From Daejeonella lutea (GTDB lineage Bacteria > Bacteroidota > Bacteroidia > Sphingobacteriales > Sphingobacteriaceae), in contig NZ_FUYR01000003.1 of NCBI RefSeq assembly GCF_900168015.1, positions 186,001 to 250,000 on the forward strand: a stretch of DNA of 64,000 bases, written 5' to 3'. Of this stretch, positions 36,510 to 53,506 are shown one piece after another. Position 1 is the stretch's first letter; the number at the start of each line of letters is the position of its first letter. Both the position numbers and the translations under genes were made by a program. The notes beneath the pieces were generated by a model, which made no database searches, was not told the DNA's origin, and worked only from the letters and a program-made list of their open reading frames with translations.

Positions 36510-36543
36510 TATGTCAGGCCTTTTTAAAGAGGGGCCTGACATA
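36510..36543. terminator. Perfect 11-bp stem-loop between convergent genes
   Basis: TATGTCAGGCC and GGCCTGACATA pair perfectly around a 12-base loop. The stem overlaps the last codons and the stop of the flippase gene on the minus strand and lies 25 bases after the LruC gene stop on the plus strand. There is no strong T-run. It can serve both convergent transcripts. Confidence 0.6.
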
Positions 36544-37854
36544 TTTGTTATAAAACTCCGGATAAAACTCCCATGCGTATTTCAAGGTATTAAACGTTTG
36601 TACATTTAATTCCCGTTTAAGAATAAACTGACTTAAGAAGAAACCCACAATACTTGAGCATAAAGTGGCATACGCTGCACCCATTACACCCCACCTGCTA
36701 ATAAATAAATAATTAAGAGCAATATTGATGGCGGCTGTTATTACCACCATATAAAAGTTGAGTTTTGGCTTACCTATAGAGTCCAGGATATTTCCAAACT
36801 GTCTCGCGTATGGGATAAACAGACAGTAAAGGAGAACAATTTTGAGTAGCGGAACTGCGTCGTCGTACTTGTCTCCGGCGACAATAAGCACAACAATATC
36901 TGCGAAGCAAAAGATTAGGAAAACTCCGGGTATAAGGATGGCCATCAACACTCCTACAGATTTTTCGTACAAATACTTTACGGCATGTTTACCCTCGGTT
37001 TCACTTCGTCTGGCACTCTGAGGGAACACAATTATTGCAATTGCATTAGTAGGAATGTCGATCAAATTAGTGATCCTAACCGCAATATTAAAGGCCCCAG
37101 ATGCAACCGGCGATAAAATCGCTCCTAGCATCATCTGATCAATTGTTGTCGAAAGGATCGAACTTAAGGAAGTTCCGAACGCATATTTCCCATAATTGAA
37201 GAGCTTCTTTGCCCAGCCGTAACTAAATTGAAAGGCCAGATCAAAATATTTCCTTGAGAAAAAGTATGAAACTATCGCGCTGATGAAGAATGAGGCAAAT
37301 TGCGCATAAACAAGGTTTTTAAGGATAATACCCGGGCTGAAAAAATAACAATAAAAAATATATAGAAAGAAGATTCCTTGTCGGACAAAAGCACCCACAA
37401 ATACACCTTTGAATTCCAGATTGGCCTGTTCAATTGAGTTGAACATGGTAAGTATGCCCGACACGACGAATACCCAACTATATAAGTGAAATATTTCTAG
37501 TAGCTCCGGTGCATCCCATACCTCTGTAAGTATGCGGGCAAGTAAAAAGTTTAAAAGGATACATAACAACGTAAGTATAGCACTGATACTAAATGAAGCA
37601 GAGATTATTTTTGTATGTTCTTCCTTTTTTTCGAATGCAAGGTACTTAATGAGTGCATTTTGAATGAGCCCGCCTCTCATAAATTCAAGGATCGTGACCG
37701 TTGACATATAAAGAGCCCAGACACCAAACTGATGTTTATTTAACAGACGCACCAGAAAATAAAATCCGCCAAATGTAAATGCCACACCTGTTAGATTTTG
37801 TAAAACAGTGTAGAATGCGGAACTCATCCAATATTCTTCCTTTGGGCGTTTCAT
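36514..37854 (-). CDS. Polysaccharide flippase (Wzx/MATE-like)
   Basis: A 446-residue integral membrane protein with 12 or so hydrophobic helices. It belongs to the polysaccharide-flippase (Wzx/RfbX, MOP exporter) superfamily, as shown by the charged N-terminal helix leading into SAFYTVLQNLTGVAFTFGGF, the GVWALYMSTVTILEFMRGG segment, and later GKPKLNFYMVVITAAINIAL with WGVMGAAYATLCSSIVG. It would move lipid-linked oligosaccharide units across the inner membrane for the polymerase encoded at 42.8-44.2 kb. It is separately transcribed from the main operon, with a glycosyltransferase on the opposite strand between them. Confidence 0.92.
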   Translation of the reverse strand: MKRPKEEYWMSSAFYTVLQNLTGVAFTFGGFYFLVRLLNKHQFGVWALYMSTVTILEFMRGGLIQNALIKYLAFEKKEEHTKIISASFSISAILTLLCILLNFLLARILTEVWDAPELLEIFHLYSWVFVVSGILTMFNSIEQANLEFKGVFVGAFVRQGIFFLYIFYCYFFSPGIILKNLVYAQFASFFISAIVSYFFSRKYFDLAFQFSYGWAKKLFNYGKYAFGTSLSSILSTTIDQMMLGAILSPVASGAFNIAVRITNLIDIPTNAIAIIVFPQSARRSETEGKHAVKYLYEKSVGVLMAILIPGVFLIFCFADIVVLIVAGDKYDDAVPLLKIVLLYCLFIPYARQFGNILDSIGKPKLNFYMVVITAAINIALNYLFISRWGVMGAAYATLCSSIVGFFLSQFILKRELNVQTFNTLKYAWEFYPEFYNKYVRPLFKKA

Positions 37855-38092: not shown

Positions 38093-39253
38093 ATGAACAA
38101 TAGGTTAACGATTTATATCGTAGGTGATTTTAAATCAGAAGCCGCTGACGGACTTGCAGAATTTAGCTATCAGAATGTAAAACTGCTGAGAGACGAGTTC
38201 ATATTTGAATTCGTAGAGTTCGATGCACTTCAACCAGAGGAGTATTATAAACTTGAAGTCAGAGAGGGAATAGATGTTCATCGTTTTGGGGTTAAAGGAT
38301 TGACATTTTTCACTCTTCCCACTAATTACTCAAAATGGATTAAGGGGCTTAACAAATCGGCAGGTTTATTTCATTTGCATCACATATGGAATATTAGAAA
38401 CTACCTGATAGCAAGACACCTTATAAAAAATAATATTCCGTATTTGATTACCCCCCATGATTCCTACGTCTATAGTAAAAGTTATAATTTGAGCCGGCCT
38501 TTATTCAAGAGGTTATACCGTCGTGCGTTCGTGCTGATATTTGATAAATATGTGCTCGATCATGCCCGGGTGGTCCACGCATTAACAAATCATTGTGTAC
38601 CTTCTTTGCAATTGATCACCCATTCTAGGATAGAAGTCGTTGAGAATCAAATTTCGGATCCACATATTCCTCTTTCTATTGCCTCGGTTAAAATGCAAGT
38701 TTGTTTCATTGGGCGGTTTAATGTGTTTCAGAAAGGAATAGACTTGGCTCTCCGCGCCTTCGGTCTTTTTAAGAATAATGGAACGAATCCAGGGGTTCAA
38801 TTTGTATTAGTAGGACCGGGCGACAAACACGCAATTAATTTGGTAAAGTCGTTATGTGAAGATTTACGACTTGAGATTGACCGTGATGTTTTTTTTCCTG
38901 GAAAGGTTTCTGAAGTTGAAAGAAATTCCTTTTTACAGGAATCAATGGTTTATATGCAATTATCCAGGCATGAGGGGTTTGGACTTAGTGTGGTACAGGC
39001 ATTGGCCAGTTATAAGCCAGTTATTGTTTCTGAAGGAATTCCAATCGGCGAAACTATTGAAAAATACAATGCTGGCTATGTTGTTGAAAATACTCAGGAG
39101 GCTGCTGAAGCTCTTCATAAGATTTTCACTATGCCCACAGAAGAATATTTGCAAATGGCAAATAACGCCCGCCGATGTTACTTGCAAGAATTCCATTCAA
39201 CTGTAATTAAGCCCAAGTTAATCTCACTTTATACTTTGGCAGCAGTTAAATAG
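38093..39253 (+). CDS. GT4-type glycosyltransferase
   Basis: A 386-residue GT-B fold enzyme. The C-terminal nucleotide-sugar domain is clear: FIGRFNVFQKGIDLALRAF, FVLVGPGDKH, and SRHEGFGLSVVQALASYKPV, which contains the E-x7-E-like retaining GT4 motif. The N-terminal acceptor domain includes HLHHIWNIRNY and LITPHDSYVYS. It is the only gene of the exopolysaccharide region on the plus strand, transcribed alone and divergent from the flippase gene. It would add one sugar to the repeat unit on the cytoplasmic side. Confidence 0.92.
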   Translation: MNNRLTIYIVGDFKSEAADGLAEFSYQNVKLLRDEFIFEFVEFDALQPEEYYKLEVREGIDVHRFGVKGLTFFTLPTNYSKWIKGLNKSAGLFHLHHIWNIRNYLIARHLIKNNIPYLITPHDSYVYSKSYNLSRPLFKRLYRRAFVLIFDKYVLDHARVVHALTNHCVPSLQLITHSRIEVVENQISDPHIPLSIASVKMQVCFIGRFNVFQKGIDLALRAFGLFKNNGTNPGVQFVLVGPGDKHAINLVKSLCEDLRLEIDRDVFFPGKVSEVERNSFLQESMVYMQLSRHEGFGLSVVQALASYKPVIVSEGIPIGETIEKYNAGYVVENTQEAAEALHKIFTMPTEEYLQMANNARRCYLQEFHSTVIKPKLISLYTLAAVK

Positions 39254-39278: not shown

Positions 39279-40061
39279 TCAGTTTTTCTGTTTGGAGAAG
39301 CGGATATCAAAATTGTATTTGAACTGCCTGTAAAAATACCTTAGTGCACTCACTACGGCATTCGAGCTTAGTGTCCAGCTTTTCCGGGTCACCGTACTTG
39401 GCTCCGAAGAAGGATTATATTGTTCAAACAACGTTTTGAATTTATCATAAATCAAACCTTTCCCCTGATTCTGGATAAATGATAGACACATTTTGTACTC
39501 GGCTTTGTCAGATGGAATTTTCTCCCTATAGCGACCAAATTTAGTGAGGAAATCAGAACGACGAAGGTGCGGGTGGTCGCTATAAAGGTATATTTTAGTG
39601 TAATCTAACCCTAGTGGCTTGAACAACATCTCCGAAAAACCCTTTTTATATGGTATGGTGTATGGGTATGGGAGATAAGAATAAAATCGGATTGTATCCA
39701 ACTCGGAACGCTCTTCCATCATTACTAGCGCGTCATGGAATGAACCGGGAAAGTTTCGTAAGGGAATAAAATCTTCCTGAACATAAAGAGTATATTTGGT
39801 AATCACGGCGTCCTGACCCTTGTTCAGATTGTGAGCCAGGCCTTTATTCTTCGAAGTTCCAATTAATCTGAAATTATATTCGGTACTTAATTGCTTTAAT
39901 AATGCTTGGTGAGAATGATTGCTGCAATCGTCTGAAACTACAATTTCCCCAAAACTGCAATTCAGCCCGCGAAATCCCGATAATAGTCGCTCCAGCGATT
40001 CACTTCTATTATAGTGAGTCACTAAAAGAGTAACATCATGAAATTTGTGAACTGCATTCAT
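39279..40061 (-). CDS. Family 2 glycosyltransferase
   Basis: A 260-residue GT-A enzyme. N-terminal LLVTHYNRSESLERLLSGF and IVVSDDCSNHSHQ bind the nucleotide, and YVQEDFIPLRNFP supplies an acidic metal-site segment. No membrane helices. It is last in the minus-strand exopolysaccharide operon, 12 bases after the preceding glycosyltransferase. The C-terminus is basic (KYNFDIRFSKQKN), possibly membrane-associated. Donor and acceptor cannot be read from the sequence. Confidence 0.85.
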   Translation of the reverse strand: MNAVHKFHDVTLLVTHYNRSESLERLLSGFRGLNCSFGEIVVSDDCSNHSHQALLKQLSTEYNFRLIGTSKNKGLAHNLNKGQDAVITKYTLYVQEDFIPLRNFPGSFHDALVMMEERSELDTIRFYSYLPYPYTIPYKKGFSEMLFKPLGLDYTKIYLYSDHPHLRRSDFLTKFGRYREKIPSDKAEYKMCLSFIQNQGKGLIYDKFKTLFEQYNPSSEPSTVTRKSWTLSSNAVVSALRYFYRQFKYNFDIRFSKQKN

Positions 40062-40073
40062 CTTAATTTAAAT

Positions 40074-40928
40074 CTACTTGCCGAAATCTTGATCTTTGGG
40101 AAGTTTGGAATGCAAATTAAAAGTAAATCGTTTAAGTTCTTTTATCAACCTGCTTCTGAGAGCCTGCCCAAATCCGCCATCGCGTTGCAATGTTCTGGGG
40201 CTTGTCCATGCTCTGGCTTTATTCGATCTAACCTGTTTTACTTTGCCATACTTCATTAAAGCCAAACAAAGCTGTCCGTCATCTCCCCAAAATCCGGTTT
40301 GAATAAAGCCCACTCGCAGTCCCAGTTCTTTGATAAAACCCATACTTATTCCATACGCATTAAAGTAGGGCCGGTTGATATGACGATATTCAGCAACTAC
40401 ATCTTTCATTTTTTCAAAGATTGCAAGTTGCCATCTTGGGTAATGTACTTCGTTAAGAAATGAATATCTTCCATAAACACAAACAACATCTTGCTTCGAT
40501 AGAACTTTAATCATTTCATCCACCCAGCAGTCCGGGTAAAGACAATCGGCATCCGCAAGCAAAATATATTTGCCTGCTGCATTTTCCTGGCCTAGTTGAC
40601 GGGCTGGACCGCAACCTTGTTTTATTTCAAACAGTGATTTTACATGAAGCTGATCGAGTGTTTTTTGCGTGTTATCCTTTGAATTATTATTAATCACAAT
40701 AATTTCTAATGGAATTTCAGTCCGCATTTTTGATAAGCTTGCAACACATTTCAGAATATTTATTTCCTCATTCCAAGCTGCAATAACGATACTGACTAAA
40801 GGATCCGGCTTTTGAATTTTATCTAAGTCACAGTTTATTTGATCAAATACCTCATTTGGAATCTGGTCGAAGGATTCAAATGGGAATTGAAATTGGTCCA
40901 GCCAGGATGGTGTTTTGAAGAAGTTCAT
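40074..40928 (-). CDS. Family 2 glycosyltransferase
   Basis: A 284-residue GT2 enzyme. VSIVIAAWNEEINILKCVAS and IVINNNSKDNTQ (nucleotide-binding), LLADADCLYPDCWV (metal-binding DxD-like) and FWGDDGQLCLALMKYG (catalytic acidic region) are in the usual order. It has an N-terminal extension of about 45 residues before the GT-A domain. It sits between the acyltransferase and the last glycosyltransferase of the operon, with gaps of 24 and 12 bases. Confidence 0.88.
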   Translation of the reverse strand: MNFFKTPSWLDQFQFPFESFDQIPNEVFDQINCDLDKIQKPDPLVSIVIAAWNEEINILKCVASLSKMRTEIPLEIIVINNNSKDNTQKTLDQLHVKSLFEIKQGCGPARQLGQENAAGKYILLADADCLYPDCWVDEMIKVLSKQDVVCVYGRYSFLNEVHYPRWQLAIFEKMKDVVAEYRHINRPYFNAYGISMGFIKELGLRVGFIQTGFWGDDGQLCLALMKYGKVKQVRSNKARAWTSPRTLQRDGGFGQALRSRLIKELKRFTFNLHSKLPKDQDFGK

Positions 40929-40952
40929 TTAAGGGAATCTATTCACAGAAAA

Positions 40953-41567
40953 TCAGGTTTTCTCCCATTTTCCAAGTTCAAAATTATATTTTTTTATAAC
41001 CTTCGCTGGGTTCCCAACAGCAACTGCATAGGCCGGAACATCTTTGGTAACCACACTACCAGCACCAATTATTGCATGATTTCCAATTTGGACCCCAGCC
41101 GTGATTGTTACGTTAGCAGCAATCCACACATTGTCACCAACAGTAATTTGTTTGGTTGATATTTCCTGCCTAATTGGAGGAACTTTGATATCTTCATAGC
41201 CATGATTCATACCTGACAATACAACATTCTGGGCAAGCATTGTGTAAGACCCTATTTGTACAGGGCCGATAATTACATTTCCAACTCCAACGATAGTATC
41301 ATTCCCGATTATGATGTCGCCAACAGCATTATTCAACGTTGAAAAACTTTCAATGAGAGACCTGCAGCCTAGCGAAAAATTTCGAAAAGGGAACAAGTCG
41401 GTTTTAGTGACAGAACGTATAACAGAGCCCCTGCCACGATGGTGTTTAAAGGGATTTAAAAAGGCTTTAACCCACCACCTCGGCCGATATTCATTCGAAG
41501 GGATCAACATCCACAAAACGACTTTCTTTAACTTCGGATCAGACTTAATCTTGGAAATCAAACTCAT
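40953..41567 (-). CDS. Hexapeptide-repeat acyltransferase (WcaF/LbetaH type)
   Basis: A 204-residue left-handed beta-helix acyltransferase. Hexapeptide repeats run from about residue 75 to 190 (for example [20 protein letters not shown] and [20 protein letters not shown]). The catalytic histidine is probably in [10 protein letters not shown]. The end [18 protein letters not shown] is the typical C-terminal signature. It would acetylate (or otherwise acylate) a sugar in the exopolysaccharide repeat. Its ATG overlaps the preceding glycosyltransferase stop by one base. Confidence 0.93.
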
Positions 41568-42775
41568 TATTTTGCGGTTGTTTTATTTATTGCATTGTAG
41601 ATTTCATTTGCACTGTTTTCCCATGTGTGAGTCAGTGCGAATTGTCGGCGGCTAATCTGAAGTTCTTCAGAGTCGTCATTGAGTGCCTTATCAATTAACT
41701 CGACATATTCAATAGCATTTTCAGCAAGATAGGTGTAATTGCTAAATATCTGCATAGCCTCTGTCCGGGTAGCCACCACGGGTTTTCCCATCGCGAGGTA
41801 TTCGTCTATTTTTCGAGGGTAATTCCCTTGTGTAACCTGGTTAACTAATTGGGGATTTAAACATACTGCAAATGCATTGATGTAGGACGGCAACAGTTCC
41901 ATGGGTTTCGGACCTGTGAATAAGATATTCTTATAACTGTGGAGCATAGACTGTTTAAAAGTTTCATCTTCAGGGCCGACAAGTACAATTGTCCAGTCTG
42001 GCCGGCAAGTTGCTAGGTGTTCAATTATCGAAATGTCGATTCGAATACTTTGCAATGCTCCCACATAGCCTACAATTTGTCCGGCTAATGATCGAAGTTC
42101 TGCCGGTATCACCTGTGCAGACTTTGGATTGAAAATGCTGAAATCACATCCTTGTCCAACATAGAAAGAGTTTCCATTAAATTGTTGACAGTATCGGGCG
42201 AGAAAAACCGAATTTGCAACGCAAAGATCACTTTTTGCAATTAGTTTTGGTTCAATTCGTTTACCGTGTTTTGCCCAGTAGTCCACTCCGAGTAAAAAAT
42301 CCCTGGAGTAATATACGCTGCATGAGGGATTTAAAAAGTCTTTAAGATAAAAGCTTCTGAATATATCGTTGTCATTAAACAAAACAATCTGTTCAAAATT
42401 CAGCTCTTGAACTGCTTTTCTTATGGAATTAGAAATGATAAGATTATTTCTTTTGTTCAGCCAATCAAAGACCCATGGGATTTTAATCCAGTTAATGGAT
42501 TCAATCATGGAGTCGGGATATAGTTCCCAAATATTGGTGTCAACTTTTCTCAATCCTTTTTCTCGGCCCCGTATGACATTGATCCGCTTTTTAACTTTTG
42601 GATCATTGGATTTTGTCCAATACGTTTTTCGGTCAAGCGGAGAGTTTACATACAAAACCCGATTTGATTTTGAGAACTCAATAGCGAGATTTTTGCAATT
42701 GCTGCCAAGATCAACATCCCAGGGTTGAAGCCCGACAATAACAATATCTCTATTTTTGATGGTATAATCAGGCAT
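41567..42775 (-). CDS. Glycosyltransferase, TuaH-like GT-B fold
   Basis: A 402-residue GT-B enzyme. N-terminal [20 protein letters not shown] and a later [30 protein letters not shown], and [20 protein letters not shown] match the TuaH / GT4-like group, where the last segment holds the sugar-nucleotide-binding glutamate. No membrane segments. The first 8 bases overlap the end of the polymerase gene and its stop overlaps the acyltransferase start, so expression is coupled. Confidence 0.88.
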
Positions 42776-44195
42776 TCAGAAGGTGATTATTTTCCTGGTC
42801 AAGCCGGAGGGTGACATTTATAAGTGCTACAACCAAATAAAAATATACGTTAGTTGGGAATTGGACCAGAGCTTCCTGAGGATAATTTCCCACGTTTAAA
42901 GCAAATACTATCAGTGTCATTGCTAAACAGTAACTTTTAAGTTCCGGATCCTTGATTTTATAATAGTTGTTAATGCCTGTTTTGAGGATTACGAATATTA
43001 AAGTGCAAAAGATTAGAAGTCCTATCCATCCTAGTTCTACAGCAACGCGTACATATCCGCTATCTGGAGGAAACGATGCTAAAAAAGATCCGGGTGAGAA
43101 TTTTTGCCCCCACACTCCTGTTGAGCCGAGACCTCCACCCATTGGGTGGCTCTGAATATAGGGCTGTATCATCTTCTGATTTATTGCCCGTACATTAAAC
43201 GACGCATCTTCGGAAGGCTTGAATGCCGATTGAAACCGGAACAATGCTGGATTGCTTGTGGGTATATTAATTAATATCAATACGATTATGCCCCCAAGGG
43301 CGGTTAACATTAAAACTTTCTTATTGAATACCAATATTGACAATAAAATCATGGCCGCTGGAAATAAAACATAGGCTCCCCGGGTCCCTGAATAGATCAT
43401 ATTTAAAAGAAAAAATGCGATCATGAATCCTAGAATCCATTTTTTTGCCCTGGAAACAGGTCCGAACATTAAGCCAACACACAATAATGAACTAACCACC
43501 ATGTTGTATGAAAATGCCACCGGATCAGAAAAGATTGAAAATTTTCTCCAGACGCCCCCAATAAAAAGTAAGTTCATGATCAACGGATCAGAATTTAAGT
43601 ACTCTTCTTCAAACTGGAAAAATCCAAAATGGTGCTGCTTAAAACCATACAATGCAGCAAACATACTTAAGCTTAGCCATACCTTAATTATCAGTTTCAA
43701 AAAGTCACGTGAGCGAATATGGTAACTGAAAATAAAGTATGATAACATAACTATTGCCACACTACGAATGGTGTACATCCAGGCCATTCGTGATGTACTG
43801 CTGGGATTTATTATCTCAAGAAAGTTATAACCTATCCAAATTAAAATTAATGTACTTATTGGGCCCTTCAGAATGGTCCAATCTGGATTGTATTTCTGTT
43901 TGATAAATAATCCTAAAATCAACAATGCAAGAAGCCCATCCATTAACGTACCTAATGGAAAACTCGTAAGTCCCATCCGCATAATCCACATGATAAGGTA
44001 AGCCGCAATAAGCATTACAAGAATTCCAACTTTTGGATGTGCAATGACTCCATAAATCAAGGGAATAGCAACAGTTCCTACCAGGATTAGTGCACTAGTT
44101 TTCACCCCTCCTTGGTAAATGAGATAACCAGCTCCAATAGATACGGTGAGGAGCACAATGATTAGCGTAAGAAGTCGATTGTTTTTCAAATCCAA
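42768..44195 (-). CDS. O-antigen ligase/polymerase-like membrane protein (Wzy-type)
   Basis: An integral membrane protein with about 11-12 hydrophobic helices and a large periplasmic loop (about residues 330-380). The loop contains the QSHPMGGGLGSTGVWG segment typical of the O-antigen ligase / Wzy superfamily. It would polymerise or ligate the repeat unit outside the inner membrane. The open frame extends to a TTG at 44258, but that extension overlaps a likely 42-residue gene. I chose the TTG at 44195, which begins LDLKNNRLLTLIIVLLTV in good register with the first helix. The exact start is uncertain. Confidence 0.88.
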   Translation of the reverse strand: MDLKNNRLLTLIIVLLTVSIGAGYLIYQGGVKTSALILVGTVAIPLIYGVIAHPKVGILVMLIAAYLIMWIMRMGLTSFPLGTLMDGLLALLILGLFIKQKYNPDWTILKGPISTLILIWIGYNFLEIINPSSTSRMAWMYTIRSVAIVMLSYFIFSYHIRSRDFLKLIIKVWLSLSMFAALYGFKQHHFGFFQFEEEYLNSDPLIMNLLFIGGVWRKFSIFSDPVAFSYNMVVSSLLCVGLMFGPVSRAKKWILGFMIAFFLLNMIYSGTRGAYVLFPAAMILLSILVFNKKVLMLTALGGIIVLILINIPTSNPALFRFQSAFKPSEDASFNVRAINQKMIQPYIQSHPMGGGLGSTGVWGQKFSPGSFLASFPPDSGYVRVAVELGWIGLLIFCTLIFVILKTGINNYYKIKDPELKSYCLAMTLIVFALNVGNYPQEALVQFPTNVYFYLVVALINVTLRLDQENNHLLNA

Positions 44196-44214
44196 TTCAG
44201 TTATTGAGTTGCCA

Positions 44215-44343
44215 TCACAAAAACAATATCTTGACGAAAAAAACAAAAACGCTAACAAATGCGGTGACTATAGCGGCGATCCGTGTTGTGTTTTGTAACC
44301 GTTCAGCTGAAGTCTTCCTTTCTCTAAGGTCTTCGATTTTCAT
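44215..44343 (-). CDS. Small membrane peptide, 42 aa, in the exopolysaccharide operon
   Basis: ATG at 44341-44343 to TGA at 44215-44217 encodes MKIEDLRERKTSAERLQNTT followed by a single hydrophobic helix (about residues 22-42) ending IKILFL-like with no tail. It is placed 29 bases after the preceding glycosyltransferase and 19 bases before the chosen polymerase start. It has a charged N-terminus and one membrane-spanning helix, as many small membrane regulators do. No homologue recognised. Without it the interval would be an unusually long gap in an otherwise tightly packed operon. Confidence 0.6.
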   Translation of the reverse strand: MKIEDLRERKTSAERLQNTTRIAAIVTAFVSVFVFFVKILFL

Positions 44344-44372
44344 AATATAATAATAATGTTAATCATACTTCA

Positions 44373-45560
44373 TTATTCGACAGGCAGTTCGGACGAGTGT
44401 GTATGGCGTGTGCTAATTGGTTGCTTATTCAAATTCGATAGTTTAACCAAAGAAAGAACCTGATAGTAAATGAATTTAGGGATACTTACGAGCGAACGAT
44501 AAATCCGCCGATCCACATTTGAACTCATCAAAGCCAGGGCGAATCCTATTATAAAACACAAGAGTCCGGCAGACCAGTAAAACATAAAATTGGATCCAAT
44601 CACAACATTTATGCTGAAGAAACATACAGAGAATATCAGGAAAAGAAAAAGTGGAGGACGAAGTAGGATAATTCCAAATAGGGTTTGATTCCAGTTAAAT
44701 GAGGTTACACCTGATCCGATAAGCCGGAAGCCGTAGGAAAAATATTTGAACCATGTATTGATCCATCGGGAACGTTGATTTACAAGTTGATCAGTCTGCG
44801 CCGTTTTTTCGTCGTATACAACAGCTTTCTCCGCGTAAGCAATCCGAAAGCCTTGTTTCACAATTTCATATTGAAGAACTTTATCAAATCCCGCCCCTTT
44901 AATATCATTTTTTTCAAGAAACGATTTATATAGAGTTGTTGTAAATGCCATTCCTGATCCGGCCAATGTAGCAGACGACCCTAGGGCGAAAAGTACCTTT
45001 CCGTCATAAAAATGATAATAAATATCTCTTGCAGCATCAAGGCAGGCATAAGTTGTATCTAAATTCTTAGGTGATCTGAGGCCCTGAACAGCATGGAATC
45101 CCATCTTAAACACATGTTCCAGCTCGTTGATAAATTCTGCATCTACAAGATTGTCGCTATCGATGATTGTAACTCTATTGTGTTGGCGTCTGAATCTATT
45201 CAGAGCATAAAGATGAGATCTGGTATTACTTGCAAGGACAGTTTCAGGTTTGAGTAGAATAACTCGGGAGTCGTTGAAGTGAAGATTTGAAACATTGCTG
45301 CAATTATCCGCAACTACATAAACGAGATAATTCTGGGAGTTAATATTGAGTATTGAATCGATCGTTTTCTGAAGATGATGAGTATATTGATATGCAGTGA
45401 CGATGATCGCATAGTCTCCTGCTTCCCAAGATTCATTTTCTTTTGTTGGTACGTACTTAAAAGCACAATAAAAGACAAAAAGGAGTAATGGCAATAATAG
45501 ATTATAGCCAATGGACAACTGAATGAAAATCCAGGTGTAATGTAATAATCCCTCTATCAT
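44373..45560 (-). CDS. Membrane-bound family 2 glycosyltransferase
   Basis: A 395-residue membrane GT2. An N-terminal helix, then AIIVTAYQYTHHLQKTIDS and VYVVADNCSN (nucleotide site), VTIIDSDNLVDAEFI (metal-binding DxD) and NQRSRWINTWFKYFSYG, which contains the QxxRW motif of processive or lipid-linked glycosyltransferases, followed by two or three C-terminal helices. The stop and start abut the Wzc-like gene with no gap. It probably extends the lipid-linked repeat unit. Confidence 0.92.
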   Translation of the reverse strand: MIEGLLHYTWIFIQLSIGYNLLLPLLLFVFYCAFKYVPTKENESWEAGDYAIIVTAYQYTHHLQKTIDSILNINSQNYLVYVVADNCSNVSNLHFNDSRVILLKPETVLASNTRSHLYALNRFRRQHNRVTIIDSDNLVDAEFINELEHVFKMGFHAVQGLRSPKNLDTTYACLDAARDIYYHFYDGKVLFALGSSATLAGSGMAFTTTLYKSFLEKNDIKGAGFDKVLQYEIVKQGFRIAYAEKAVVYDEKTAQTDQLVNQRSRWINTWFKYFSYGFRLIGSGVTSFNWNQTLFGIILLRPPLFLFLIFSVCFFSINVVIGSNFMFYWSAGLLCFIIGFALALMSSNVDRRIYRSLVSIPKFIYYQVLSLVKLSNLNKQPISTRHTHSSELPVE

Positions 45561-47756
45561 TTATTCAACAACAGTTGCTAGCTCGATCTGCTCGGTTACT
45601 TTTCCTTCAGGTTTCACCTTGTTTAGCACCCATCCTATAAATTTCCCATTTATAGTGGAAAGGTAATGTATATGTTGTTTTTTCGCTGCAGTTATTGATT
45701 GATCAGCCTGAAACACACTTAAGGTTTTGTCTGAAAATAGAATCCACTCTTTAGCTTTATTAAGAGATTCAAGTGGCGGTGTCTCAACAATTATTACATC
45801 AAAGATAGTTTTCAATTCATCCAAACGTTCCTTGATGATCTTTTCATCGGCTAATTCAAACAATGATTTATCCCCGCCGCGATTTCCCATAACCATTATC
45901 CCCGCATTAAAGTCGGCACCGGGAATTTCTCCGGTTTTTAGGTAATCTTCAATAAACAATTTGGTGTTCGAATTTTCCGTTACTGATGAATGGTCAAAGT
46001 TGCCATCTACTAGTAAAACCTTTTTACTAACCATCACGTAAGTATAAGCAATACATGCTGCTATTAGGGTTTTGCCTTCACCCTCGCCTATGCTTGTGAT
46101 GTTGAGAATGCTTCCCCGGTTACCCGACAATGCAAGCTCTTTGTTTACTTCAAATCGCGTAGAACGTAGTTGTTTTTTAAACTCTTTCATTTCCGCGGTT
46201 CCATGTAAGTTTTTCCAAATACCCTTCAGATCCAACGTCCTTTTGCCAACAAGATTTAAATATCCTAAAACGGGAATTTGGGTTGCTGCAGCCAATTCCA
46301 TAGGACGCCGGATTCGATCGTCCAGGTAAAAAATGACGAAGAAAACCAGCAGGCAAAATGCACCACTTATAATCCCGCTCAAGAGTACTAACAACATCTT
46401 TTTAGATGGCTGAGCCAATCCAGGCATAGCCACGAGTGTCTGGCGAAGCTTAATAGGGAACTCAGATTCCATTTTAATCTGATTATACTGAGTTAAAAGG
46501 TCCTGATATTCTTTACTTACCGTCTCGATATTTCGATCAAAAGATTGGATTACCGCTTCATGCGGTACTAGATTGTCAAACTTTCTTCCGATAAAGTTCA
46601 GGTGTCTTTTTAGTGAATTAAGACCATAGGTTGCGAGGTCCAGTTGCAGTTGCAGGTTTAACTTTTGCTGCACAAGGTCTTGTTTTGTATTAAGTGGGTT
46701 ATAAATGTACTTATCAGACTGACTATTAATTTGCGACGTTATCACCCTTTGAAGAGAATCAATAGATTTCTTATATGATTCATCGAAGTCATTTTGTACA
46801 TATTTATCATATAATGAATGTATTTCTGCTCGGGTTGATAATATATTCTGATTGATATCTGTCAAAGTAGATTCAAAATACTTTCGATCCTGAGGATCAA
46901 ACCGTTTGTCAATATTAGCAATGGCACCTCGATAAGATATTATGTCTTTTTCTGCCTGCTGAATGCGAAATTCATAATCAGCAGACTGTGTCATTATTTG
47001 TGATGACTGCTCATTCAAATTAAGAATCCTGTTATTGATCTTATATGACCTTAAATTGGCAATACGATTCTGAAGAGTATCTGATTTTTGATTCAAAAGA
47101 TTTTCCAGAAACTTAACAGATGATCGCTGATTCGCCTTAACGAGGGTTGTATAATAGTTAGTGAATTCATCACTTAACGTATTTACGACAAATGCTGAAA
47201 GGTCAGGACTTTCTGATGTATAATCCAGGTTGATAAAATCTGTGGCGCCTAGACGATATACACCCAAAGAGGATTTAATGGATTCGTCGTCATATTCCAT
47301 TGACCTAAGAACCGAATAAAGTCCATTTTGATCAGGGTCTCTTAAATTGAGACTTTCCTTTTTTTGATATTTATCACGGAAAACATCAATCGCATGTTTA
47401 ATCGCATCCTCATTTAACTCTTTTAATAAAGGGCTTTTAGGTTTGAAGGGTTTTGCCGTAAGATCATGGATTATTAATTTGTATGAAACCAAAGTAAGCA
47501 TGCTTTTTGAGCGCATTACTTCAATCATATTGATAAATTTTTGGTTAATCCGTGAATCCTGCAACATCGCATCATCGGTAAATGACATCTGCTGGGTTTC
47601 ATCCACAATACCCGTTGCTATTTGAGCTTCGGACCAGTAAACATCCGGCAAATTCCGAACGATAAAAAACGTCACCATTATGGTCAAAAGTGGGACAATA
47701 ACTACAACCAGGCGATATTTCCAGATGAGAAGAAAGAATTTTTTTAACTCATCCAT
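45561..47756 (-). CDS. Wzc-like polysaccharide co-polymerase with altered kinase domain
   Basis: A 731-residue protein combining a Wzz-type chain-length domain and a BY-kinase-like C-terminal domain. First membrane helix at about 14-33, periplasmic coiled coil at about 205-440, second helix at about 453-477, nucleotide-binding domain from about 540. The P-loop is SIGEGEGKTLIAA (K562, T563). The Walker A' position reads VLLVDGNFDHSS (D584) rather than the usual LLxDxDxR. The Walker B position reads VIIVETPPL with Glu at 658 in place of Asp. The end EQIELATVVE lacks the tyrosine cluster of autokinases. Chain-length control is likely; autokinase activity is doubtful. Confidence 0.88.
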   Translation of the reverse strand: MDELKKFFLLIWKYRLVVVIVPLLTIMVTFFIVRNLPDVYWSEAQIATGIVDETQQMSFTDDAMLQDSRINQKFINMIEVMRSKSMLTLVSYKLIIHDLTAKPFKPKSPLLKELNEDAIKHAIDVFRDKYQKKESLNLRDPDQNGLYSVLRSMEYDDESIKSSLGVYRLGATDFINLDYTSESPDLSAFVVNTLSDEFTNYYTTLVKANQRSSVKFLENLLNQKSDTLQNRIANLRSYKINNRILNLNEQSSQIMTQSADYEFRIQQAEKDIISYRGAIANIDKRFDPQDRKYFESTLTDINQNILSTRAEIHSLYDKYVQNDFDESYKKSIDSLQRVITSQINSQSDKYIYNPLNTKQDLVQQKLNLQLQLDLATYGLNSLKRHLNFIGRKFDNLVPHEAVIQSFDRNIETVSKEYQDLLTQYNQIKMESEFPIKLRQTLVAMPGLAQPSKKMLLVLLSGIISGAFCLLVFFVIFYLDDRIRRPMELAAATQIPVLGYLNLVGKRTLDLKGIWKNLHGTAEMKEFKKQLRSTRFEVNKELALSGNRGSILNITSIGEGEGKTLIAACIAYTYVMVSKKVLLVDGNFDHSSVTENSNTKLFIEDYLKTGEIPGADFNAGIMVMGNRGGDKSLFELADEKIIKERLDELKTIFDVIIVETPPLESLNKAKEWILFSDKTLSVFQADQSITAAKKQHIHYLSTINGKFIGWVLNKVKPEGKVTEQIELATVVE

Positions 47757-47758
47757 AA

Positions 47759-48433
47759 CTACAGAACTTCTTCAAGCTTTTTATTAAGGAGTTCTTCAAG
47801 CAGAGCCTTTGCAGAGAGAAAATTTGATTCTATAGCAATTTTATTCTGCATTGCTGTAGATAATGAATTTTGACCTAGAGTGTAAGAGTCAAAATTAATC
47901 TCGCCTTTTTCATATTTTGTTCTGATGTCACGACTAACATTTTGAATGTCAGATACCAGCTTCGATTGAAGCTTTAGTGCGTTTAACTGCTGTAAGTACG
48001 CGAAATATCTTCGTTTTACTTCGCTCTCGATAGTGAGATAATATTCCTGCTGATCATATTCAGCTATCTTACGTTCAAGTTTTGCCTGTTTAACGTTTGC
48101 AGGCTTCTGTAGTACAGAGCTAAGATTAAAGGAGACACCGGCCTGATAGCCATCGAAAATTATGGGATTATTTAAGTCCAGTGTGTTTTTAGGCTTATAA
48201 ACATAAGTGAAACTGAAAGCGTCCAGCCAGGAAAGTTGTTCTTTCGAAATGTTTGCGTTCGCAATATCAATGCGAGCTTTGTAGGCATTTATACGAGGAT
48301 AATTTTCTTTGGCAGTCGCTATTAATTTCTCGAGATAAACGGTAGAGTAATCAGTGATCGTTTCCTGTGCTTTACAAACGTTGGAAGAGTATAGTACGAA
48401 AAGGATCAATAGTAAAGTATAGTGTTTGCTCAT
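47759..48433 (-). CDS. Half-length TolC-like outer membrane protein
   Basis: A 224-residue secreted protein with a signal peptide (ends CKAQ) and the helix-strand-helix pattern of a single TolC structural repeat: NYPRINAYKARIDIANANIS, then a beta section (FSFTYVYKPKN and YQAGVSFNLSSV), then long helices to the end. Normal TolC proteins are about 430-470 residues with two such repeats, so this is half size. Its ATG overlaps the preceding TGA. In an exopolysaccharide operon it occupies the place where a Wza-type exporter is usual, so it may form the outer-membrane channel as a larger oligomer (inference). Confidence 0.8.
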   Translation of the reverse strand: MSKHYTLLLILFVLYSSNVCKAQETITDYSTVYLEKLIATAKENYPRINAYKARIDIANANISKEQLSWLDAFSFTYVYKPKNTLDLNNPIIFDGYQAGVSFNLSSVLQKPANVKQAKLERKIAEYDQQEYYLTIESEVKRRYFAYLQQLNALKLQSKLVSDIQNVSRDIRTKYEKGEINFDSYTLGQNSLSTAMQNKIAIESNFLSAKALLEELLNKKLEEVL

Positions 48434-49521
48434 TCTTCTTTATGTAAGATTACAGGAATTGTTTGCAATAATATTTGTACGTCAAACCAAAACGAATGCT
48501 TGAGTGCGTAGAAGTTATCGAATTTTTTCCGCTCTCGTTCTGATACGTCTTTCGCTCTGCTCTTAATTTGCCATAATCCCGTAACTCCCGCTGGTCCCAT
48601 AAACCGTAGTGACCATTCATTTGATGTCAGCATTTCAGCCTCATATAAGGGTAGCGGCCGGTTACCCACCAGTGACATTTCTCCCCTTAAGACGTTAAAC
48701 AGTTGCGGGAGTTCATCGATACTAGTTTTCCTGATAAATTTACCAACTAAAGTCGTCCGGGGGTCATCGCCCAATTTGACAAAAACAGGCCGACGTTTAT
48801 CTGTTTCAGCGGAAGAAACATATTTGTTAAGATTAGATAAATCAGTCAGTTGCTTGTCTGCATCAACTCGCATCGACCGAAATTTGTAGAAATTGAATAT
48901 GTTATAACCTGTGCCTACCCGTTTGCTTTTATAAATTACGGGTCCCTTCGAATTCAATTTAATTGCAATTGCAGTTAAAATAAGAATTGGCGAAACTAAA
49001 AGGATTAGAAAAAATGAAACTACAATGTCAAAAACCTTTTTTCCTAAAGGGAATTTATAAGAAATCTCAGCCTCTTTAAGTACTGACAACTGAGGTTTTA
49101 CCAGCTTAAATTTTATTAGAAAATTAATCCGCTCTATTAAATGTTCAGTGGGAAATGGCAGCACATAATAGTCATGGATCTTCAACTGGAGAGCTTTAAG
49201 TTTCCACTCTTTTTTTCGACTACTTGAAAGGAGTACAATTATCAGGTCCTTCCACAGTGGATTCTTCTTTAACTTTTTTATGAATTCAAAGCACTCACCA
49301 TTCGCATCGGTTTCAATTAGTATGACATCCGGCAAGGTCATAATCGACTGGTTGCTCAAATATTCATGTAAGTCATTTAGAACCGAGAACCTGTGTATAT
49401 AAAAGAAATCCGGGAAATCATTTATGATTGGAGCGCATTTGTCAGTCCCCGCATAGAGTAAACTACGCTGAAGATTCTCAACCCGTCTTACAGTAGCTGG
49501 ATTAGTTATTTGCGAGATCAT
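48430..49521 (-). CDS. Polyprenyl glycosylphosphotransferase fused to a degenerate receiver domain
   Basis: A 363-residue initiating sugar transferase. Residues 165-187 form a membrane helix. The catalytic part follows with PVIYKSKRVG, FYKFRSMRVDAD, RKTSIDELPQLFNVLRGEMS and GNRPLPLYE, standard for the WcaJ / CpsE family. The first 140 residues look like a response-regulator receiver fold (LPDVILIETDANG, LIIVLLSSSRKK, YYVLPFP). The phospho-acceptor position is E70, the N-terminal acidic pair is absent and the conserved Lys of K-P-F is L121. It would start synthesis of the lipid-linked repeat unit, perhaps under control of the fused domain. Confidence 0.9.
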   Translation of the reverse strand: MISQITNPATVRRVENLQRSLLYAGTDKCAPIINDFPDFFYIHRFSVLNDLHEYLSNQSIMTLPDVILIETDANGECFEFIKKLKKNPLWKDLIIVLLSSSRKKEWKLKALQLKIHDYYVLPFPTEHLIERINFLIKFKLVKPQLSVLKEAEISYKFPLGKKVFDIVVSFFLILLVSPILILTAIAIKLNSKGPVIYKSKRVGTGYNIFNFYKFRSMRVDADKQLTDLSNLNKYVSSAETDKRRPVFVKLGDDPRTTLVGKFIRKTSIDELPQLFNVLRGEMSLVGNRPLPLYEAEMLTSNEWSLRFMGPAGVTGLWQIKSRAKDVSERERKKFDNFYALKHSFWFDVQILLQTIPVILHKEE

Positions 49522-49888
49522 ATTGGTAAAGCGCTGTGCTGATTGATAGCTTTAGTTCTGTCGGATTGAATGGCTTCTTAAAAAAGTAATCCGCCCGATA
49601 TGGCATCTGTTCCACAATTGTCTCCAGGTTATCTGCTCCAGAGAGTAAAATCACTGGAGTATCTCGGTAAAAACCACTTATTTTAAGATTACGAATGAAC
49701 GACCCGCCGTCTATATAAGGCATCTCCAGGTCCGAGATAATTAAGTCAGGATCGTTACCATCTTCAAGCCATGAAATTGCATCGGCACCATTCTGTTTTA
49801 TGATGAGATTGTATTCCTTGGACAGTATAAAATTGAGCAGTTTCAGGATACTTAGTTCATCATCAACAACCAGAATTTGTCTTTTCAT
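49502..49888 (-). CDS. Stand-alone response regulator receiver at head of the exopolysaccharide operon
   Basis: A single receiver domain of 128 residues with all active-site residues: D9/D10 in VVDDE, phospho-acceptor D53 in LIISDLEMP, S83 in LLSGAD and K105 in FFKKPF. No output domain. Its 3' end overlaps the following sugar transferase gene by 20 bases, and that protein starts with a receiver-like domain of its own. It is the first gene of the operon, so it may control the pathway by protein contact rather than DNA binding. No histidine kinase is nearby. Confidence 0.93.
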   Translation of the reverse strand: MKRQILVVDDELSILKLLNFILSKEYNLIIKQNGADAISWLEDGNDPDLIISDLEMPYIDGGSFIRNLKISGFYRDTPVILLSGADNLETIVEQMPYRADYFFKKPFNPTELKLSISTALYQYDLANN

Positions 49889-50204: not shown

Positions 50205-50699
50205 CTAGTTGTTCGAGAGCATTGGATAGCCTTTCGCGATCCAGTTTTGCTTGATATTTACAGGTATATTAAGGAGCTTTCCATTATGAAAACCCATTTG
50301 TTTCATCATGCTGAATGCAGGCCGAATGTTAGGACATTTGTCGAAAGGACAACACCCGCAATAGATGACTACTTTGGTATTTTTTGGGACCGACTTTAAT
50401 TGTGCCTGCAGCTTATCTACATTCTCTTTTTTACTTGCTGCACCCATAGACTTAGCGCCCTGAATGTTTTCTACTACACCAATGTTTAAGATAAGGGGAT
50501 GGGAACTCTTTTTACCTTTTAAAATTGAGGCTAACTCGGCAGGCTCAATAAGATCTTTGGATGTCCAAAGGTTGGGTTTATCAAGTGACACTGCAGATCC
50601 CTGAGATATCTGTGCTTTTGCAATGTTTGAAACCGCCATGGTACAAAACAGCACGATCAAGGAAAAGTATTTTATCACGGAAATCGATTTATTTTTCAT
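50205..50699 (-). CDS. Exported rhodanese-like protein
   Basis: A 164-residue protein with an N-terminal signal peptide (about 1-29) and a rhodanese-like domain. The candidate active-site loop is VVIYCGCCPFDKCPN, with four cysteines where single-Cys rhodaneses have C-x5-R/T. IRPAFSMMKQMGFHNGKLL is the usual continuation. It may transfer sulfur or bind a metal or thiol ligand in the periplasm. A TauE/SafE-type permease gene lies 139 bases upstream on the same strand, suggesting a shared role in sulfur compound handling. Confidence 0.8.
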   Translation of the reverse strand: MKNKSISVIKYFSLIVLFCTMAVSNIAKAQISQGSAVSLDKPNLWTSKDLIEPAELASILKGKKSSHPLILNIGVVENIQGAKSMGAASKKENVDKLQAQLKSVPKNTKVVIYCGCCPFDKCPNIRPAFSMMKQMGFHNGKLLNIPVNIKQNWIAKGYPMLSNN

Positions 50700-53059: not shown

Positions 53060-53452
53060 TTAAATTTCTTCAAGTATCTGGTTGGTTAAAGGCTTACCTA
53101 TAAACCTAGATACAAGATGATTTTCATTTATCCTTTTTATATCCTTAGGGTCAAGTGATGAAGAAAGGACAAAAATCTTAATTAAATCTGGTTTCAAGTT
53201 CGGGAGTTCGATAAGGGATCTCAAAAATTCAAATCCATTCATTATCGGCATCCTCAAATCAAGGAATATTACTTCGGGAACATCGTTTCCGGTAACTAAT
53301 GAGTTACGGACGAATTCGAAAGCCTCTTCAGGGGAATCAATGACAGTGATCGTTTCTGCGTAATGGGCGTTGTCCAATATTTTACGATTGATCAAATTGT
53401 CTATATGATTATCGTCAATGAGAAGAACATTTTTATATCGGTACGAATTCAT
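53060..53452 (-). CDS. Stand-alone response regulator receiver
   Basis: A 130-residue receiver domain from the ATG at 53452; an in-frame GTG at 53479 would add nine residues. VLLIDDNHIDNLINRKIL holds D13/D14, VIFLDLRMPIMNGFEFL holds phospho-acceptor D65, and FVLSSS and FIGKPL provide the conserved Ser and Lys. This is the RcpA-like receiver group common in Bacteroidota. No output domain. It lies downstream of the TolC gene of the efflux operon and directly upstream of the GlcNAc kinase. No histidine kinase nearby. Confidence 0.92.
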   Translation of the reverse strand: MNSYRYKNVLLIDDNHIDNLINRKILDNAHYAETITVIDSPEEAFEFVRNSLVTGNDVPEVIFLDLRMPIMNGFEFLRSLIELPNLKPDLIKIFVLSSSLDPKDIKRINENHLVSRFIGKPLTNQILEEI

Positions 53453-53506
53453 CCAACCAAAAATACTAAATCTTTGCACTTTAGCAAATAATCCACTGCT
53501 ATGGGC

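Follow-up and report, generated by a model that had tools for sequence, protein, structure and literature searches.

An enduring question is how bacteria apportion their undecaprenyl phosphate and nucleotide sugars to polysaccharides and to peptidoglycan, and a locus of Daejeonella lutea (family Sphingobacteriaceae; genome of 4.03 Mb in 10 contigs) raises a particular form of it: does a two-component receiver act directly on the transferase that starts a polysaccharide? The window analyzed here is the whole 64,000-nucleotide (nt) stretch at positions 186,001 to 250,000 of contig NZ_FUYR01000003.1. On its minus strand lie two overlapping genes, one for a stand-alone receiver (a single-domain response regulator) and one for a small monotopic phosphoglycosyl transferase (PGT) with a receiver-like domain at its N-terminus. 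By its modeled fold this fused domain is a pseudo-receiver, and we lean slightly towards the view that the two genes would encode a switch that acts after translation on the first committed step of a Wzx/Wzy pathway.

Predicted Fold and Active Site of the Fused Protein

The stand-alone receiver (49502..49888, minus strand; ATG start) has 128 amino acids (aa) and a clear Pfam match (Response_reg, E 4e-20). The fused protein (48430..49521, minus strand; ATG start; assigned by Pfam, AlphaFold2 and VIA) has 363 aa, and the two open reading frames (ORFs) share 20 nt at 49502..49521 (minus strand), the overlap that the original prediction had described. Sequence profiles hardly detect the fused receiver, since Response_reg is matched only at residues 64-133 with 17.1 bits against a cut-off of 30.2 (E 0.0066), below the gathering score. 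In the AlphaFold2 model, built with an 18-row alignment as input, the mean predicted local distance difference test score (pLDDT) is 80.4 and the predicted template modeling score 0.54; blocks of 10 residues over 21-140 average a pLDDT of 82-92 and alternate as (beta-alpha)5. VIA superposes residues 18-137 of this predicted model on the receiver 3dgf over 116 residues (Z 17.3, root-mean-square deviation [rmsd] 1.5 A). A second fused protein from another clade, with Gln at the acceptor site (L173, Sediminibacterium ginsengisoli; L and G numbers denote loci and genomes), is also modeled as a receiver fold (mean pLDDT 74.2; VIA Z 16.8, rmsd 1.9 A, 118 residues). The structure that the original prediction had proposed as its test is thus a receiver fold, and the extent of the domain is corrected from residues 1-140 to about 18-140; VIA matches spanning 17-148 place the predicted domain at residues 18-148 (49078..49470, minus strand), best modeled to about 140. 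The domain is recognizable as a receiver (by fold, and by sequence only weakly) and lacks residues needed for phosphotransfer, which agrees with the definition of a pseudo-receiver in the available text of PMC12632262.

The remainder of the protein is a Bac_transf domain (residues 161-359; 48445..49041, minus strand; Pfam E 1e-58), and residues 156-361 match PglC with Z 22.1 and rmsd 2.3 A over 176 aligned residues, which makes the protein a monotopic PGT. Asp269 and Glu270, presumably the catalytic pair, are invariant in the 18 fused-protein rows, and the Asp-Glu motif pattern recurs in 139 of 145 transferases. A large PGT would have a transmembrane bundle and a domain of unknown function (DUF); the model has instead the pseudo-receiver followed by a helix at 159-191, with no N-terminal helical bundle.

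In a joint alignment, D9/D10, D53, S83 and K105 of the stand-alone receiver correspond to Y23/A24, E70, S99 and L121 of the fused domain. The set expected of a phosphorylatable receiver (acidic pair, Asp, Ser/Thr and Lys) is therefore complete in the former, whose aligned Asp53 acceptor codon is at 49730..49732 (minus strand), and broken in the latter. The substitutions noticed originally, namely Glu at the acceptor site, loss of the acidic pair and Leu for the Lys of K-P-F, are borne out (Glu70 codon GAA at 49312..49314 and Leu121 codon at 49159..49161, both on the minus strand and both placed by alignment). Residues 66-70 form beta3 in the model, so E70 closes this strand. An intact Asp in another alignment register is absent from the window's clade, where P64 and E70 are invariant in 39 of 39 rows. 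D117, Y119, P122, R131 and F134 are likewise invariant across these rows; to judge from the alignment, such conservation is not drift. The Pfam receiver model finds 14 of the 39 domains at E<=0.1.

Linkage of Receiver and Transferase

Among 60 genomes, the window's and its relatives, 18 have the receiver (E<=1e-20) and 19 the transferase (E<=1e-40), with 17 common to both. The 18th receiver genome (G016) has a transferase found by family profile search (L126), so all 18 have one. In G008 and G012 the transferase is reduced to remnants interrupted by stops, and a search at E<=1e-25 finds no such receiver. It is also missing from five relatives that lack the transferase (G001, G002, G005, G006 and G013), except inside a 993-aa frame in G006. 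In G066 the pair is split, and a different contig carries a receiver of this type (E 2.8e-59, with a single stop in the match).

A profile built from 18 fused proteins matched, at E<=1e-60, 118 of the 201 family genomes (in 16 of 25 genera) and 54 of the 395 phylum genomes; close to the threshold, the phylum matches include large transferases. We examined 160 loci in 159 distinct places, 140 of them fetched for the survey. Outside it are matches in the family genomes G197, G191, G176 (two) and G157 and, in the phylum, one in G243 plus ten (E 3e-61 to 3e-64) whose start is at profile position 79 or later. A fused domain, defined as more than 95 residues ahead of the transferase domain, is present at 145 loci; these include a broken second copy in G135 with a receiver beside it in two frames (L165), a locus with a cut N-terminus and no receiver by tblastn (L138), one with its receiver elsewhere (L034) and one with a stop in the match (L097). 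A stand-alone receiver gene lies within -100 to +300 nt of 142 of these 145, compared with 3 of 11 transferases without the N-terminal domain (P = 3.6e-9, Fisher's exact test, ancestry ignored). Four of the 160 rows were left out of this comparison: the remnants L021, L022 and L166 (L021 and L166 being the same place) and L096, which has a truncated start and a receiver 326 nt away.

Overall, the receiver directly adjoins the transferase at 145 of the 160 loci, and the adjacent pair occurs in 37 of the 38 genera that have the fused domain. The gap between the genes is negative at 75 of the 145 loci with an adjacent receiver and at most 30 nt at 130. The control was a set of other transferases from many phyla (63 loci): none has a same-strand receiver within 500 nt upstream, compared with 16 of 17 Bacteroidota loci of this subfamily (L167-L183); the exception, L183, has no N-terminal domain either. 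The stand-alone receiver is thus a nearly constant genetic companion of the pseudo-receiver transferase.

Active-Site Residues and Their Changes on the Tree

In counts per locus, where well-sampled genera weigh more, the acceptor column of the 145 fused domains holds E 96, Q 17, D 9, N 6, Y 6, V 2, K 2, H 2, G 2, M 1, A 1 and S 1, and that of 145 stand-alone receivers D 132, S 8, E 4 and V 1. None of the nine fused domains with Asp also has both Ser/Thr and Lys, so these homologues do not refute the original prediction. The Lys is found in 4 fused domains and in all 145 stand-alone receivers, which also all keep the P and F that follow it. The full set (both acids, D, S/T and K) occurs in 0 of 145 fused domains and in 129 of 145 stand-alone receivers (one of the 145 rows is cut by a contig end). 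Read from these alignments, the contrast is a division of labor between the two proteins.

By genus, Glu occurs in at least one fused domain in 24 of the 38 genera and Asp in at least one in 7. Glu is found in 86 of the 114 fused domains from the window's family (counted without genus g17), namely in L039 and in 85 proteins below 390 aa. The remaining 28 (Q 14, Y 6, N 3, V 2, H 2 and K 1) are long-form proteins, with L024 (341 aa, Q) as the exception. In a tree built from the transferase domain, the window's clade (38 rows, all Glu) has a Shimodaira-Hasegawa-like approximate likelihood-ratio support of 99. Glu and non-Glu at the fused acceptor site require at least 6 changes, and the residue itself at least 24 with domain absence counted as a state, so that it is labile outside the window's clade; the tree has several long branches and 41 weak forks out of 98, and gain and loss are indistinguishable on it. 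Two phylum-level loci (L129 and L132) have Glu at the fused acceptor site and still hold the Lys and part of the acidic pocket, which indicates that the Asp-to-Glu change need not follow loss of the Lys; judged by these residues, they possibly represent an early stage of degeneration.

The stand-alone receivers without Asp have Ser in L017, L065, L068, L071-L074 and L076, Glu in L066, L086, L158 and L161, and Val in L152; they retain K, P and F and their position beside the transferase.

Glu is the commonest replacement of Asp in bacterial pseudo-receivers, and its effect there perhaps works through a conserved T and K, according to the available text of PMC12632262. The proposal that Glu70 mimics a permanently phosphorylated state is therefore doubtful, as the Lys is gone here. 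A classical phosphomimic acting via Thr and Lys was considered for the fused domains at large and set aside as doubtful, with K in only 4 of 145. The strict retention of Glu in the window's clade implies that Glu70 has some role.

Comparison with Known Systems

In Myxococcus xanthus, the phosphorylated single-domain receiver EpsW activates the initiating transferase EpsZ; phosphorylation raises the proximity of EpsW to EpsZ in proximity labeling, and EpsW increases EpsZ activity in a heterologous host (2025, PMC12802240, as far as its available text goes). The authors suggest there that such control extends past myxobacteria, and the main text contains no word starting with "Bacteroid". The present pair is similar in combining a single-domain receiver with the initiating monotopic PGT of a Wzx/Wzy exopolysaccharide pathway. 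It differs in that the large PGT EpsZ carries a transmembrane bundle and a DUF, whereas here a small PGT has a pseudo-receiver in that place, and in that the receiver and PGT genes overlap.

A second likeness is to PleD of Caulobacter crescentus (receiver, pseudo-receiver, diguanylate cyclase), except that in the present system the first receiver has a gene of its own and a PGT takes the place of the cyclase. VIA aligns the fused domain with four PleD entries through residues 144/147-286 (Z 16.0-16.7, rmsd 3.8-4.6, 136-139 residues), which we take to be PleD's second receiver, and the NCBIfam PleD model matches it at model positions 190-281. Receivers without key residues for which receiver/pseudo-receiver heterodimers have been proposed also occur in BldM/WhiI and CmrRST; these are transcriptional regulators, unlike the PGT-fused domain. 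According to PMC12632262, in the text available, phosphorylation of the PleD receiver alters its contact with the pseudo-receiver and leads to dimerization, and receiver/pseudo-receiver heterodimers could be phosphorylation-dependent; its main text contains no word starting with "transferase".

Receiver domains on small monotopic PGTs were described by O'Toole et al. (2021), as cited in the available text of PMC12802240. We recognized no account of this pair in Bacteroidota in titles and abstracts, a coverage that leaves out most subscription papers. EpsW-EpsZ is the one demonstrated system of receiver control of a first transferase that we found; a compact two-gene pair in about 37 Bacteroidota genera would make such control, and the function of bacterial pseudo-receivers, directly testable in vitro, and the natural series of Asp, Glu, Gln and Ser at the acceptor site lets one ask when phosphate is needed.

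Tests for Contact between the Two Proteins

A mean-field direct-coupling analysis (DCA) of 142 pairs (effective number of sequences 110) gave a mean of 1.10 for the top 20 inter-protein scores. Shuffling within genera (ten runs) gave 0.76-0.85, and ten full shuffles gave 0.65-0.75; shared ancestry could produce this excess.

We also followed the salt-bridge pairs R91-E111, D100-R115 and D101-R122, which we take to be those of the alpha4-beta5-alpha5 face of PhoB. In the 58 pairs outside the window's clade, the stand-alone receivers keep R91, E111, D100, R115, D101 and R122 by charge in 51, 50, 45, 48, 53 and 42 cases. In the fused domains, one residue of every pair is kept (basic 107 in 40, basic 131 in 51 and acid 117 in 53) and its partner mostly lost (acid 127 kept in 7, acid 116 in 13 and basic 138 in 5); when three of the six are lost at random, the probability that each pair loses one is 8/20. 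In the 84 pairs of the window's clade, the fused domains all have R131 and D117, with acid 127 in 64 and basic 107 in only 49. The stand-alone receiver of this clade has moved away from the pattern (acid 100 kept in 59, acid 111 in 13 and basic 122 in 10). The pattern outside the window's clade may favor receiver/pseudo-receiver over pseudo/pseudo pairing, and is suggestive only.

Proposed Mechanism and Alternatives

In the mechanism that we favor, a phosphorelay would phosphorylate the stand-alone receiver, which would then dock on the pseudo-receiver of the transferase. Docking would most likely turn the transferase on (less likely off), probably through its oligomeric state or the placing of its catalytic domain. 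The fused domain may have been made unphosphorylatable, leaving the reading of the signal to the separate receiver only, and Glu70 may be retained to fix the conformation of the docking domain, probably an active-like one. The arrangement would be that of PleD split into two overlapping genes, and would also resemble EpsW-EpsZ. Of the control model in the original prediction, the pseudo-receiver and its near-constant companion stand, with a precedent in M. xanthus (PMC12802240, available text); binding between receiver and transferase, its dependence on phosphate, the direction of the effect and the role of Glu70 are what we infer. The pattern in Bacteroidota suggests direct contact as the means by which a two-component signal would act on the initiating step of polysaccharide synthesis. 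More tentatively, such "split PleD" heterodimers may be widespread in the phylum and let a phosphorelay set polysaccharide initiation without transcription or cyclic di-GMP, some lineages having later become phosphate-free with both receivers degenerate.

Several observations weigh against the switch. The stand-alone receiver lacks Asp at 13 of 145 loci (at least 5 changes between Asp and no Asp on the tree), so the pair persists there without a phosphorylatable partner; the transferases of L150, L156 and L157 have the receiver and no pseudo-receiver, which means that the latter is not always needed. Neither phosphate nor pseudo-receiver is thus universal, which counts against a single rigid model. 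The correlation between domain and receiver rests on only one to three independent changes on the tree, too few for the Fisher value to be a proper test. The top DCA pairs of the 142 outline no surface or contact pattern, and phmmer aligns the fused domain to PleD chains at about 43-130, that is, to the first receiver and not the second. Among the best 3 candidates per genome in 395 genomes, no single ORF with intact receiver, pseudo-receiver and PGT was found; 9 matches spanned receiver and pseudo-receiver, every one with one or two stops. No kinase lies within 700 nt upstream of the window's receiver.

Some of these points fit a reading in which the pair binds and the receiver is an inhibitor or an assembly partner, with or without phosphate: a pseudo-receiver with a fixed Glu might keep the transferase active by default, or the partner might be needed only for folding. 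Persistence of the pair at the 13 loci with Asp-less receivers, the invariant Glu of the window's clade and the overlapping genes at 75 of 145 loci, which would suit co-translational assembly, agree with this. We nevertheless consider it rather unlikely, because an unphosphorylated scaffold would not need the whole active site kept in 129 of 145 receivers or the K, P and F kept in all 145, and because the only tested precedent, EpsW-EpsZ in the available text of PMC12802240, is activation by the phosphorylated form. Another possibility, which we judge unlikely, is that the pseudo-receiver is merely structural, dimerizing or ligand-sensing, while the receiver controls another protein of the cluster; the domain would then stand in for the cytoplasmic DUF that large transferases have, a possible binder of uridine monophosphate (UMP). 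VIA matches residues 18-360 with WbaP 146-471 over 233 residues at rmsd 16.1, a value that makes the match hold domain by domain, with the pseudo-receiver in the place of WbaP's DUF. A UMP-regulated DUF is proposed in the available part of the WbaP paper, and the three loci with a receiver and no pseudo-receiver also fit this reading. It is harder to reconcile with the receiver lying directly beside the transferase at 145 of 160 loci and with the co-occurrence of domain and adjacent receiver (142/145 vs 3/11, four rows dropped), on however few independent changes.

Ordinary operon linkage without functional contact, the domain being the decayed remnant of a former phosphorylatable fusion beside a duplicate receiver, would account for the weak or absent Pfam score of the window's domain and of most of its clade (14 of 39 at E<=0.1), and for the lability of the acceptor residue outside that clade (at least 24 changes, absence counted). 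It is highly improbable given that E70, D117, R131 and other positions are strictly conserved in the window's clade, that a receiver fold is predicted in two separate clades and that the adjacent pair occurs in 37 of 38 genera.

Possible Kinase and Hpt Input

A kinase lies within 700 nt upstream of the receiver at 15 of 161 loci (a raw count), nine of them divergent and in two genera (g14 and g15). At L134, L156, L157 and L174 the receiver is preceded, at a distance of 18-331 nt and in the same orientation, by a gene for a hybrid kinase (HisKA-HATPase-REC-Hpt), which speaks for kinase input to the switch in some lineages. At L156 and L157 the small transferase without pseudo-receiver stands in a row with the receiver and the hybrid kinase-Hpt, with 18-34 nt between kinase and receiver. 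In the window's genome HisKA is matched 55 times and Hpt once (E<=0.001); the single Hpt match is a stand-alone Hpt protein (L251, 1396-1782, minus strand), from its sequence a candidate phosphodonor for orphan receivers. As a donor specific to the pair, Hpt was rejected, since it occurs in 18 of 18 receiver-bearing genomes and also in 27 of 42 others.

Neighboring Genes

The receiver and fused transferase head a run of polysaccharide genes on the minus strand. The transferase stop is overlapped by 4 nt by the start of a half-length outer-membrane efflux protein (47759..48433; 224 aa, a single PF02321), and counterparts of 225-228 aa follow the transferase in L006, L009 and L011; no OPX/Wza-type match was found among the cluster proteins scanned. 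Next is a Wzz-type co-polymerase fused to a BY-kinase-like ATPase (45561..47756; weak profile matches). It has the Walker A motif GEGEGKT and only one Tyr in its last 40 residues, hence no Tyr cluster, and from these features is perhaps a pseudokinase, as EcpK of M. xanthus is called. The remaining cluster (39279..45560, minus strand; Pfam) comprises a family 2 glycosyltransferase (GT2), a Wzy-type polymerase, a family 1 glycosyltransferase, an acetyltransferase and two GT2 genes. A Wzx-type flippase lies beyond it (36514..37854, minus strand; Polysacc_synt_3 E 2e-30), and between flippase and cluster is a glycosyltransferase on the opposite strand (38093-39253).

Upstream of the receiver, 50205-50699 (minus strand) encodes a small protein with a CGCCPFxxCPNIRPA motif and no Pfam match at 1e-3, which is also found upstream in L006, L009, L021 and L022. 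A second short receiver-like ORF with a weaker match (53060-53479, minus strand; Pfam E 3.7e-11, GTG start) adjoins a BcrAD_BadFG-like ORF that scores under the Pfam cut-off.

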